Origin: Phycisphaerae bacterium
GTDB lineage: Bacteria; Planctomycetota; Phycisphaerae; Sedimentisphaerales; Anaerobacaceae
Reading direction: 5' to 3'
Length of the DNA: 46,694 nt
Assembly: GCA_017993835.1 (NCBI GenBank)
Contig: JAGOLX010000047.1
Location: 1 to 46,694 of the forward strand
Position numbers and translations under genes: made by a program. Positions 6,854 through 46,620 of this stretch are shown here, in pieces. Position 1 is the stretch's first letter. The number at the start of each line of letters is the position of its first letter. A model generated the notes under the pieces. The model ran no database searches, was not told the DNA's origin, and saw only the letters and a program-made list of their open reading frames with translations.

Positions 6854-7050
6854 CGGATGCATGCCCGTTCCTGCGGCCTTTCGCAGAGTGACGAAGCGTC
6901 GCCCCGACTTTGTCATTCCTGCGCACGCAGGAATCCAGGAACCGCGGGACCGGGCGCGACCGGAGGAGTGGATTCCCGCTTACGCGGGAATGACATTCCG
7001 AGGTTTCCATGAACACCTATTGCACGCGCGCAGATGCGGTCACGCACCCC
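6854..7050. repeat. 197-bp MITE-like repeat, copy 1
   Basis: This stretch is similar end to end to 21357-21553, also 197 bp. It has imperfect terminal inverted repeats (GG-TGC-TG-CC...CTGCG) and two inner hairpins: GTCATTCCTGCG/CGCAGGAATCC at 6912-6936 and GGATTCCCGC/GCGGGAATGAC at about 6970-6994. There is no coding capacity. It lies between the PGRP-like gene and the recJ promoter. Confidence 0.75.
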
Positions 7051-12607: not shown

Positions 12608-14074
12608 ATGAACCTGGATGAACTGTTGAGTCTGGTTTCCTCCCATCCGGCTATCGCTGTCCGGATCGATTCCCGTGCCGTGCGCGAGGGCGACGTGTTC
12701 GTCGCCATCAAGGGCGCGTCCTGCGACGGCCGCCAGTTTATCGGCAAGGCCATCGCCAACGGCGCCAAGTACATTGTGTGCGCGGCCGACGGGACCGCTG
12801 CGAACACCGCCGGCGCATCGGACCAAGCGGTCTTTGTGCTCGTAGAGAATCCCGCGATGGCAGCGGGTCTGCTCGCCCAGGCCGCCAACGGCTATCCGGG
12901 CAGGAAGCTGACCTGCCTGGCCGTCACGGGAACGAACGGCAAGACGACGATCACCTTTCTGGTCCGCTCGTGCATCGAGGCCGGGGGCCACAGGTGCGGC
13001 CTCATGGGGACCGTCGTCTACGACACCGGGTCCGGCCAGACCGCTTCGACGCTCACGACGCCCGATTGCCTGACCCTTGCGACGGCTCAGAGGGAGATGG
13101 TGCAAGCCGGCGCAGACCACATGGTCATCGAAGCCAGCAGCCATGCCCTGTCCCAGGACCGCCTGGCGGGCGTGACCTTCCGGGCGGCCGCCTTCACCAA
13201 TCTGACCGGCGACCACCTGGACTACCATCGGACGACGGACAACTACCTGGCAGCCAAGACCCGCCTGTTCACCGCGCTGTCGCCTGACGCGACCGCGGTG
13301 CTGAACAGGCAGGCGCCGCAGTCTCGCCTTATTGCTCAGGAGACCAAGGCTCGTGTCTGCTGGTACGCGGTGGATGAGCCGGCCGACCTGGTCGCGAGCA
13401 TCGAATCGATGACTGTCGAGGGGACCACGTTCGCGTTGGAATTCCAGGGACAGACGGAACGAGTCAAGACGCCGCTCCTGGGCCGGTACAACGTGTCGAA
13501 TCATTTGGCCGCCGCGGGGCTGTGCCTGGCCGCCGGCCTGGATCTCAAGACCGTCGCCGCGGGCCTGTCCTCTCTTGCGGGCGTCCCCGGCAGGTTGGAG
13601 AGAGTCCCCAGCGACGGGTTCGCCGTCCTGGTTGATTACGCCCACACGGACGACGCCCTGCAGAACGTCCTGACGACGTTGCGCCCCTTGTGTCGGGGCC
13701 GGCTCACCGTCCTCTTCGGCTGCGGCGGCGACCGCGACCGGACCAAGCGACCGCGAATGGCCCACGTGACCGAGCAACTGGCCGACGCGATCATCGTCAC
13801 CAGTGACAATCCGAGGACGGAGGACCCGGAAGCCATCATCGGCGAGATCATCGCGGGCTTCGAGGACCCCGGCTCCGAGCGGGTGACAGTGCAGCCGGAC
13901 CGAAGAAAGGCCATCGAACTGGCCATCGCGAACGCGCGTGACAACGATATCATCCTGCTGGCCGGCAAGGGACACGAGACCTACCAGATCATCGGCACGA
14001 AGAAATTCGATTTCAGCGACAAAGACATTGCCCTGCGATGTCTGAGAGAAAGACAATGCAGCCCATCCCGATAG
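12608..14074 (+). CDS. murE: UDP-N-acetylmuramoyl-tripeptide synthetase (meso-DAP-adding)
   Basis: MurE adds the third stem-peptide residue to UDP-MurNAc-L-Ala-D-Glu in the cytoplasm. The 488-aa length is normal. The ATP loop is VTGTNGKTT (GTNGKT at 108-113), followed by the Mur-ligase blocks FTNLTGDHLDYH and LVDYAHTDDALQNVL. The specificity motif SDNPRTED (DNPR at 400-403) predicts meso-diaminopimelate rather than lysine, so this organism should have DAP-type peptidoglycan. The open frame extends to 12491, but the ATG at 12608 has AGGA 9 nt upstream and gives the family start. It overlaps murF by 19 nt (or 37 nt with the upstream murF ATG), so murE, murF and mraY probably form one operon. 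Confidence 0.97.
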   Translation: MNLDELLSLVSSHPAIAVRIDSRAVREGDVFVAIKGASCDGRQFIGKAIANGAKYIVCAADGTAANTAGASDQAVFVLVENPAMAAGLLAQAANGYPGRKLTCLAVTGTNGKTTITFLVRSCIEAGGHRCGLMGTVVYDTGSGQTASTLTTPDCLTLATAQREMVQAGADHMVIEASSHALSQDRLAGVTFRAAAFTNLTGDHLDYHRTTDNYLAAKTRLFTALSPDATAVLNRQAPQSRLIAQETKARVCWYAVDEPADLVASIESMTVEGTTFALEFQGQTERVKTPLLGRYNVSNHLAAAGLCLAAGLDLKTVAAGLSSLAGVPGRLERVPSDGFAVLVDYAHTDDALQNVLTTLRPLCRGRLTVLFGCGGDRDRTKRPRMAHVTEQLADAIIVTSDNPRTEDPEAIIGEIIAGFEDPGSERVTVQPDRRKAIELAIANARDNDIILLAGKGHETYQIIGTKKFDFSDKDIALRCLRERQCSPSR

Positions 14075-15606
14075 AGGCCCTGGCCCGGATCGTCGGAGCG
14101 ACCGTCGCCAGACGGCCCGACGTCGGCAAGCCGGCAGCCGCGGCATCCCATGTCACCGGCGTCAGCACGGACTCCCGCACGATCCAGCCGGGCGATTGCT
14201 TCTTTGCCCTGCCCGGCGAGAACTTCGACGGTCATGACTATGTGGCGCAGGTCCTGTCGAAGGGCGCCGCCTGCGCCGTCGTCAGTCGGGCGGTGGATGG
14301 GATTTCCGGACCGCTGCTGAAGGTCCACGATACTATCGCGGCGCTGGGCGACCTCGCCCGCGAGTACCGTCGGATGAACCGGTATAAGGTGGTGGCCATC
14401 ACCGGCTCCGTCGGCAAGACCACGACCCGCCAGATCGTGCACCACGTTTTGAGCCGCCGCTTCCGCACCCACCAGGCGCAGAAGAGCTTCAACAATCACA
14501 TCGGCCTGCCCTTGACCCTGCTCGGAGCCAAGCCGGACGATGAAGTCATCATCGCCGAGATCGGCGCCAACCATCCCGGCGAGATCGCACCCCTGACGCG
14601 GATCGCCCAGCCGGACGTCGCGGTCGTGACCAACACCCATCCCGCCCATCTCGAGGGTTTCGGCGACCTCGCGACGATCATCCGCGAGAAACTCTCGGTC
14701 GCGGAAGGCCTGTCGGGCGCCGGCGTCTTTCTCATCAACGCCGACATCCCCCTGCTCATGGCGACCGCGCGGGGCTTGACGGCACTCAGTGGCGAGGGCG
14801 TCCCGCCCTTGCGTCCCGCCGGCATCCTGCCGGCGGTTCTTGATGGCATCGACGTCCCGGCGATGAACCATGGGCTGGAAGCCCATGCCGCAAAAGAGCA
14901 AGGGCAAGATGCCCTCGCTACAAGGGGCCGGTCCTTCCGCACCTTCGGCCGGTCCCCCGATGCGGACTATCGCGCCGAGCGGATCGCCTGCTCCGGCACG
15001 AGCAGCACATTCGCGATCCGAGGTACGCAGATCCGCCTGCCGCTGCCCGGTCCCGGCAACGTCGAAAACGCCCTGGCGGCGTGGGCGATCTGCGACCAGT
15101 TCGGTCTGACCCCGAGCGATTTCGCCCAGGCGGTCGAGGACCTGCCCGCTGTCTCGATGCGGGCCGAGACCCTCCAGGTCGGCTCGCTCACCGTGCTGAA
15201 CGACTGCTACAACGCCAATCCCGCGTCGATGAAGAACGCCCTGGCGATGCTGGCCAATCTGCGCTCGTGCTGCGACTCGAACCGCCATCGCCGGCTGGTC
15301 TTTTTCTGCGGGCAGATGGCGGAACTGGGACCACAGACGGAGGCGCTGCACGCCGAGCTGGGTGTCGCGGCCGCCGAGGCGGGCGTCGACCTGCTCGTCG
15401 TGGTCGGCGAGGTCCCCAGAACCACCGCCCAAGTCGCGCGCGAGACCTCGCGGCGTGGCTTGCAGACGGTGTGTTTCGAGGACACCCAATCCCTTTGCGA
15501 CCATATGCAGGACTTTTTGCGGCAAGACGATATAATACTCGTCAAAGGCTCAAGGACGGCCCGCCTGGAACGTGTGGTCCAGGAGTTGATTAAGGATTAT
15601 GGATGA
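14056..15606 (+). CDS. murF: UDP-N-acetylmuramoyl-tripeptide--D-alanyl-D-alanine ligase, with in-frame repeat insertion
   Basis: MurF attaches D-Ala-D-Ala, completing the UDP-MurNAc-pentapeptide. Typical motifs are ITGSVGKTTTRQIV, KSFNNHIGLPLTLL, AEIGANHPGEI, NTHPAHLEGFG and VLNDCYNANPASM. At 516 aa it is about 60 longer than E. coli MurF (452). The excess lies between LLMATARGL and DADYRAERI and is encoded by a composite palindromic repeat at 14789-14921 (residues such as GILPAVLDGI and NHGLEAHAAKEQGQDALATR). Both flanks align normally, so the enzyme is probably active with an extra loop. Two ATGs compete: 14038 has no clear ribosome-binding site, while 14056 has GAGAG 7 nt upstream. Confidence 0.93.
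   Translation: MQPIPIEALARIVGATVARRPDVGKPAAAASHVTGVSTDSRTIQPGDCFFALPGENFDGHDYVAQVLSKGAACAVVSRAVDGISGPLLKVHDTIAALGDLAREYRRMNRYKVVAITGSVGKTTTRQIVHHVLSRRFRTHQAQKSFNNHIGLPLTLLGAKPDDEVIIAEIGANHPGEIAPLTRIAQPDVAVVTNTHPAHLEGFGDLATIIREKLSVAEGLSGAGVFLINADIPLLMATARGLTALSGEGVPPLRPAGILPAVLDGIDVPAMNHGLEAHAAKEQGQDALATRGRSFRTFGRSPDADYRAERIACSGTSSTFAIRGTQIRLPLPGPGNVENALAAWAICDQFGLTPSDFAQAVEDLPAVSMRAETLQVGSLTVLNDCYNANPASMKNALAMLANLRSCCDSNRHRRLVFFCGQMAELGPQTEALHAELGVAAAEAGVDLLVVVGEVPRTTAQVARETSRRGLQTVCFEDTQSLCDHMQDFLRQDDIILVKGSRTARLERVVQELIKDYG
14789..14921. repeat. Composite palindromic element inside murF
   Basis: The ends are inverted copies of each other: GTGGCGAGGGCGTCC...CCCTTGC at 14789-14812, and on the other strand GTAGCGAGGGCATCT...CCCTTGC at 14921-14898. 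Between them lie two perfect 19-nt palindromes with 8-bp arms: CGCCGGCATCCTGCCGGCG (14817-14835) and CATGGGCTGGAAGCCCATG (14869-14887). All 133 nt read through in frame. The build recalls Rickettsia palindromic elements, which also insert in genes. The 16819-16837 palindrome shares the GGCATCCTGCC core. Confidence 0.8.
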
Positions 15607-16818: not shown

Positions 16819-16837
16819 CACGGGCATCCTGCCCGTG
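16819..16837. repeat. 19-nt palindrome after mraY, possible terminator
   Basis: CACGGGCATCCTGCCCGTG has 8-bp arms and a 3-nt loop, the same build and core as 14817-14835 inside murF. Followed by TCTTT, it could end murE-murF-mraY transcription. Confidence 0.65.
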
Positions 16838-21356: not shown

Positions 21357-21553
21357 CGGGTGCATGACCATTCTGGCGGCCACTCACATGACGACGAGAC
21401 ACGGGCCGGACACTGTCATTCCTGCGAAAGCAGGAATCCAGGAACCACAGAATGCGACAGATCCCAGGAAGTGGATTCCCGCTCCCGCGGGAAGGACAAT
21501 GCAGGTGCTCCGTGACCCCCTCCTGTACCCGCGCAGATACGGACGTGCACCCG
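21357..21553. repeat. 197-bp MITE-like repeat, copy 2
   Basis: The same length and order as copy 1 at 6854-7050. Terminal inverted repeats read CGGGTGCATGACC...TCTGGCGG and, from the other end, CGGGTGCACGTCC...TCTGCGCGG. The two inner hairpins are at 21415-21440 and 21472-21497. It separates the CotH gene from the HTH promoter. Confidence 0.75.
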
Positions 21554-25511: not shown

Positions 25512-25531
25512 CACCCCCGCCCTCGGGGGTG
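25512..25531. repeat. Palindrome CACCCCCG-CCCT-CGGGGGTG
   Basis: Eight-bp arms. The inverse of 46569-46588 has the same sequence with one mismatch, so the two are copies of one element. Confidence 0.7.
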
Positions 25532-45148: not shown

Positions 45149-45970
45149 CTACCGATTGCGAACCGTCACACGACCGGTCGCACCCAGGCAGGCGACCATC
45201 GGGTCGTACATGCACGATGCTTGAATGGCGGGCAGGGAGAACTCACCCGCCGCGATCACGCGAAGGGCGTACCGATAGACCGCAAGCTCGGACTCGGCCG
45301 TGCAGAACAGCACGACGCGGTCGTCCAGGAACTCCACATGGTCGGGTTGACTCTCGGCGGGCCCATCCATTCCGACGGACGTAGCCAGTCGCGGGTTCTC
45401 CACCTCCATCCCGCCGGGCAGTGCGTCCACCACCGCGATGTTGTGGACGGGCTGGCCGTTCGTGCTGATGACGATCTCGACCCGGACGAGGTCGCCCACT
45501 GCGAGGTTGTTCGCGTCCACGGGATTGCCCTCGCGGTCCAGCCAACGACGTTCGACGTGGAGCCCGCGCTCGTAAGGTTCGACCAGATCATCCCGGATCA
45601 ATCCTTTGCTCGTCGCGACCACGTAGAACGTGCCCTCTCCCTCCGAGGCAATCCGGACCGGCTCCGACGCATCGCGAACCTCCAGCGACACGGGCTCGTC
45701 CTGGGTGAACGCGACCGGCTCTCCGCCACCGGCCTGAATGGTCCCTGCAAATTGCGGCAAGTCGCCGCTCGTGGTAGCCTGGTAGCGGGCCAAGGCAGCA
45801 ATCGCAGCGGCGTTGTTCAACGTGCTGCCCCATTGTCCATTGGAGCAGGCCTTGTTCAGACTCGCCGCGAGGGGGGCGACCATCGGATGGTTCGGCTCGA
45901 TCTCCAGCAGCGTCATGTAGCCCAGCCGCCCCCGGCTGGGGAAAGCAGCGCGCTGCACCGATCTTGACAT
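45149..45970 (-). pseudogene. 5'-truncated bacterial alpha-2-macroglobulin (YfhM-like)
   Basis: The 273-aa frame covers only the C-terminal part of a bacterial alpha-2-macroglobulin, normally about 1500-1900 aa. LLEIEPNHPMVAPLAASLNK, the NGQWGSTLNNAAAIAALARY block and VVDALPGGMEVENPRL are diagnostic. The thioester domain and signal peptide are absent. Similarity stops near 45915, where CCCAGCCG-CCCC-CGGCTGGG (45921-45940) begins; this palindrome is of the dispersed type. The ATG at 45970 has no ribosome-binding site. The full protein traps proteases in the periplasm and works with PBP1C, whose gene follows. The gene seems to have lost about 80% of its length at a repeat. Confidence 0.85.
45921..45940. 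repeat. Palindrome CCCAGCCG-CCCC-CGGCTGGG at the truncation point
   Basis: Eight-bp arms. A close relative lies at 46598-46620, and both are preceded by CATGT-G. It marks where alpha-2-macroglobulin similarity ends. Confidence 0.7.
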
Positions 45971-46568: not shown

Positions 46569-46588
46569 CACCCCCGAGGGTGGGGGTG
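46569..46588. repeat. Palindrome CACCCCC-GAGGGT-GGGGGTG
   Basis: Its inverse matches 25512-25531 with one mismatch. Confidence 0.7.
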
Positions 46589-46597
46589 GCACATGTG

Positions 46598-46620
46598 GCC
46601 CAGCCGCCGGGCGGCTGGGC
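46598..46620. repeat. Palindrome GCCCAGCCGCC-G-GGCGGCTGGGC
   Basis: Eleven-bp perfect arms. A relative of the 45921-45940 palindrome at the macroglobulin truncation. Confidence 0.7.

Follow-up and report, generated by a model that had tools for sequence, protein, structure and literature searches.

A putative REPIN translated within murF of a planctomycete, and RAYT transposases nested in frame in essential genes of its relatives

The murF gene of the Phycisphaerae bacterium studied here contains an in-frame segment that, judged by its sequence, is a REPIN of the GTAG-tagged REP superfamily, an assignment that follows from its tag, its hairpins, the inverted-pair layout and the association of the family with a RAYT transposase. 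Very probably, the REPIN inserted into murF before this species and a sister species (G005) diverged, has since been tolerated as a loop of the protein, and was most likely placed there by a RAYT. In-frame REPs within genes are already known (PMC3733652), and the murF insert is one more; what appears to be new is the nesting of RAYTs themselves in essential genes.

In the window, the whole stretch of 46,694 nucleotides that was analysed (contig JAGOLX010000047.1), murF occupies positions 14038-15606 of the forward strand, encodes 522 amino acids and scores 385 bits against TIGR01143 (cut-off 288.6); a genome-wide search of the 6.37-Mb genome matched murF at this place only. DNA-level alignment with the empty murF genes of G001, G002, G003, G006, G007 and G008 puts the insert at about 14773-14921 (forward strand), that is, 147 nt or 49 codons, through which the murF frame runs without a stop. 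The right breakpoint falls between CTAC and AAGG, and the left one is uncertain by a few nucleotides: where the empty site of G001 reads CGC GCC AAG GGC, the present gene has CGG, 147 extra bases up to CTAC, and then AAGGGG. An earlier note on this DNA had described a block of 133 nt; that block corresponds to the REPIN, and the added stretch reaches about 14 nt further to the left. At the protein level, residues about 246-294 are without counterpart in relatives. The murF products of seven congeners align in two contiguous blocks, ending at residue 244-245 and restarting at 293-295, and the segment is likewise absent from the genomes of the family and order that gave a murF match. The note's proposal that a palindromic, putatively mobile element lies in the reading frame of an essential gene agrees with this alignment to close relatives, in which the insertion is missing and the flanks are intact and contiguous. 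The sister species G005, in turn, carries an 87-nt (29-residue) insert at the same murF site. Since a version exists at the same site in G005 and the sites elsewhere in the genus are empty, the segment is most simply explained as an insertion that predates the split of the two species and has been remodelled since.

The AlphaFold2 model of MurF (30 sequences) has a mean pLDDT of 87.8, mostly above 90 outside the insert, and among solved folds it comes closest to MurF of Acinetobacter, Pseudomonas and E. coli. Residues 249-293 form the only run of at least three residues with pLDDT below 50. The insert lies in the central domain between helix 238-244 and strand 301-304, which corresponds to E. 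coli MurF between residues 220 and 241. Low pLDDT in an otherwise confident model, together with the helix-to-strand position, leads us to expect a disordered loop as the product of the insert. Tolerance would then follow from a stop-free, frame-keeping insert at a connection where it yields such a loop. It is also conceivable that the insert has been retained for a benefit and is not just tolerated, by regulation through hairpins that could form in the mRNA or by a new contact of MurF, and its presence in two species would suit this idea. However, a benefit is improbable, given how strongly the two versions diverge in sequence and length (49 vs 29 residues), the predicted disorder and the presence of similar inserts in unrelated genes.

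The putative REPIN comprises two outer REPs facing each other, with two hairpins between them, and at both ends of the insert a GTRG tag stands directly 5′ of a short GC-rich hairpin. The left REP, GTGGCGAGGGCGTCCCGCCCTTG (14789-14811, forward strand), has a GTGG tag and is translated as GEGVPPL; the right REP, GTAGCGAGGGCATCTTGCCCTTG (14899-14921, reverse strand), has a GTAG tag and is read in murF as QGQDALAT. The left inner hairpin, CCGCCGGCATCCTGCCGGCGG (14816-14836, forward strand), has a 9-bp stem and a 3-nt loop, and the right one, CATGGGCTGGAAGCCCATG (14869-14887, forward strand), an 8-bp stem and a 3-nt loop. These had been taken for two perfect 19-nt palindromes; both are hairpins, the left one measuring 21 nt and not 19. 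The inverted ends of the block were recovered as well (14780-14812 and 14898-14930 are 76% complementary across 33 nt), as was the recurrence of a palindrome core after mraY, where the 11-mer GGCATCCTGCC lies within a single REP-type hairpin, CACGGGCATCCTGCCCGTG (16819-16837, forward strand), about ten bases past the mraY stop. The roughly 14 nt to the left of the first tag are extra with respect to the empty sites and are without REP origin, so that the original junction is not exact.

When up to two mismatches are allowed, the end unit is matched 24 times in this genome and the reversed pattern 3 times. With a stricter pattern and at most one mismatch, the counts are 16 here, 41 in G005, 84 in G007 and 242 in G003, and the reversed control matched 0 times in any of 61 genomes. 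By both comparisons (24 against 3 and 16 against 0) the murF end unit recurs beyond chance. The family is present in 12 of the 61 relatives, and many of its sites occur as inverted pairs with spacings from tens of bases up to about 150; for the right inner hairpin, 25 more matches with two mismatches were found in the genome, mostly CATGGGCGGGACGCCCATG. Genic REPs were called by codon-position composition (GC) and protein models. In this genome in-frame REPs occur in alaS, dxs, rsmA and waaA, each splitting a curated family model in two, with a gcvT-like gene and a formylglycine-enzyme-like gene as two further probable hosts. Among the genic examples examined, 21 of 26 forward REPs share a single frame (GEGVPPL, GILPV; P = 9e-7), as do 17 of 26 reverse ones (QGQDALAT, HGRDAHAT; P = 8e-4), one-third being expected in either orientation, and both P values are optimistic in that related copies were counted.

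Other repeats share this genome. A second REP family has hairpins at 25512-25531, 45921-45940, 46569-46588 and 46598-46620 of the window and surrounds a RAYT elsewhere (contig C37, 112000-118000, L286), with GTAGCCCAGCCGCC...GGCTGGG hairpins alternating with CACCCCCG...GGGGGTG hairpins. This RAYT, which lies outside valS and in an array of a REP family different from that of the murF insert, is a classical REPtron. A third interspersed repeat (6915-6934, 6972-6991, 21418-21437 and 21476-21493 of the window) consists of ATTCCTGC..GCAGGAAT or TTCCCGC..GCGGGAA hairpins, which partly overlap the ends of predicted ORFs (peptides FPRKREST, CESRNP).

A RAYT associated with the murF family of REPs is found in the same genus, where every congener searched has matches to the RAYT model NF047646. 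In G005 it lies inside valS, a single open frame of 1334 codons encoding ValS, REP peptides, the RAYT, REP peptides again and the rest of ValS, and it is flanked by REPs of the murF family, GTGGCGATGGCGTCCCGCCCTTG (one mismatch) and the inverted GTAGCGAGGGCGTCCCGCCCTTG (0 mismatches). The nadE gene of G003 holds another in-frame nested RAYT in the genus. The murF insert and the G005 valS element begin alike, with the GTRG tag-hairpin, CGTCC and a second hairpin, and the former is laid out like the two ends of the latter with the transposase left out, which suggests that it is a deletion derivative of a RAYT element. Nothing close to the G005 valS RAYT came up in a search of this genome's assembly; its own valS (contig C93, 37800-41800, L317) has a run of exactly 100 N where relatives carry the nested RAYT, and the gap is possibly an unassembled RAYT element. 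A separate IS200/IS605-type transposase is encoded at 12546-12896 of contig C39 (L141; 103 bits to PF01797).

The RAYT also bears on the earlier comparison with Rickettsia palindromic elements (RPEs). In behaviour the likeness holds, both being palindromic and read in frame in unrelated conserved genes (PMC3733652), but membership of that family is not supported: the GTRG tag, the inverted REP pair and the REP-flanked RAYT mark the GTAG REP superfamily, whereas the intragenic RPE-4 and RPE-6 of Rickettsia conorii are classed with CGTC-tagged repeats that have no dedicated transposase (PMC3733652). We thus regard the movement of an RPE-type element into planctomycetes as very unlikely. An ancestral MurF loop that turned palindromic by chance, though placed at a helix-to-strand connection tolerant of length variation, is ruled out by the empty sites of the seven congeners and of all other relatives with a match, and the recurrence of the end unit elsewhere in the genome and genus speaks against it too.

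Nested RAYTs are found well beyond the genus. The valS loop before TVATTRPETMLGDT also holds one in G003, G032, G035, G015, G028 and G018, and a contig fragment of G026 apparently shows the same arrangement; the loop is short in G001, G002, G006, G007, G008, G022 and G023. With the G005 RAYT as query, 65 of 392 planctomycete genomes gave matches. Reading of long open frames revealed in-frame RAYTs at one site of alaS in three genomes and at a second site of valS in two, with further hosts being leuS, purH, restriction or methylase genes, a helicase, a flavoenzyme fusion and the N-terminus of moeA; RAYTs at the very end of an open frame (L377, L382) were excluded from the nested count. Seven genomes of one planctomycete family share one site in fabZ (L337, L339, L340, L341, L344, L345, L365), where a RAYT of about 190 amino acids sits within an enzyme of about 150; the identity of the host rests on a model match of its N-terminal half, the C-terminal half having been recognised by reading. 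Most nested RAYTs examined have REP-like hairpins on both flanks. Restriction-modification and methylase genes often hold them (L363, L370, L371, L372, L373, L375, L322), and nesting is therefore not confined to essential genes. Both murF-insert genomes are apparently metagenome assemblies, and repeats break assemblies, but a frame-keeping insert at the same site in two separately assembled species, and a pattern repeated in many genes and genomes, including the almost closed G224 (4 contigs), leave an assembly artefact scarcely credible.

The motifs MP[ND]HVH (HUH) and YxxxNP are kept in every nested RAYT copy extracted, and the NF047646 scores of those nested copies that were scored range from about 59 to 87 bits, some falling below the cut-off of 80. 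Among valS RAYT pairs unsaturated at synonymous sites, dN/dS is about 0.06-0.11 (most RAYT pairs were saturated at these sites, and several ValS comparisons with pN near 0.74, being artefacts of slicing, were ignored), indicating that the amino-acid sequence of the nested RAYTs is under constraint. Selection on the host gene accounts for the open frame, but not for this conservation, part of which may be older than the insertion itself. In the RAYT tree the valS-nested copies fall in separate lineages: five genera are joined in one clade (100/100), the copies of G018 and G026 form another, and that of G005 clusters, at moderate support (93/73), with the RAYT from nadE of G003. The split of the valS copies among lineages fits repeated arrival at one permissive site, combined with some inheritance. 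Free-standing RAYT relatives stop at or shortly after the end of the conserved domain, and nested ones read through.

The course of events that we favour for murF would thus begin with a RAYT, a single-strand HUH/tyrosine transposase whose autonomous form in the genus would be the RAYT between matching REPs that is read in frame in G005 valS. The murF copy would derive from such an element by loss of the transposase, and would have persisted within the gene through selection on the host, which purges stops and frameshifts. For nested transposases the host gene would supply expression, and the host proteins may remain unspliced and active. More broadly, and here we see the case as evenly balanced, a group of RAYTs and REPs in Planctomycetota may live as unspliced in-frame domains of essential enzymes, expressed by the host and shielded from decay, since stops or frameshifts would destroy an essential host protein, with REPINs of the murF type as offspring. 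If true, this would be an intein-like niche held by a DNA transposase without splicing. It would bear on two open questions, what allows REP systems to persist and how RAYTs come to be expressed: RAYTs in frame in valS, alaS, leuS, purH and nadE, with motifs intact, suggest that the element borrows both the expression of an essential gene and its protection from decay. They also suggest that a loop of an essential enzyme can accommodate a foreign domain about 190 residues long. Caution is needed in annotation, where nested proteins may be labelled fusions or errors; a few unexpectedly long TnpA-Y1 proteins have been set aside as gene fusions or annotation errors (PMC6006769).

Among known systems, RPEs resemble the elements described here in that they are palindromic, sit in conserved proteins unrelated to one another and are translated in the frame of the host; they differ in tag and cognate transposase, the features by which we set them apart. 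Inteins with homing endonucleases likewise place a mobile enzyme in frame at permissive sites of essential proteins. Unlike in inteins, a HUH/tyrosine transposase and REP ends replace the endonuclease, and the protein appears to retain its insert. No intein model was among the Pfam and NCBIfam matches of murF or of the nested valS, nadE and alaS, and the linkers in the nested proteins are REP-encoded peptides; with the splicing domain absent, an intein reading was rejected. With IS200/IS605 single-strand transposons the elements would share a Y1 HUH transposase acting on end hairpins, but the enzyme is of the RAYT type with REP ends, nested copies scoring above or near the NF047646 cut-off.

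The closest system is that of GTAG REPs and REPINs with their RAYTs (REPtrons; PMC3733652, PMC3116915), with which the murF family shares the GTRG tag, the GC-rich hairpin, inverted pairs, many copies and, in the sister species, a RAYT flanked by matching REPs. Intragenic REPs have been described from several species, with genic GTAG REPs reported to be most frequent in the verrucomicrobium Opitutus terrae; some families have a degenerate tag, which is GTGG in most GTAG-20 elements of that species (PMC3733652). The murF insert resembles these in both the GTGG variant and the genic location in conserved genes. Our literature search, confined to open-access full text and thus weak evidence, turned up no account of an essential gene with a RAYT nested in its frame. 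Unlike in REPtrons, it is here the transposase gene itself that is nested in frame in essential genes, without a stop of its own.
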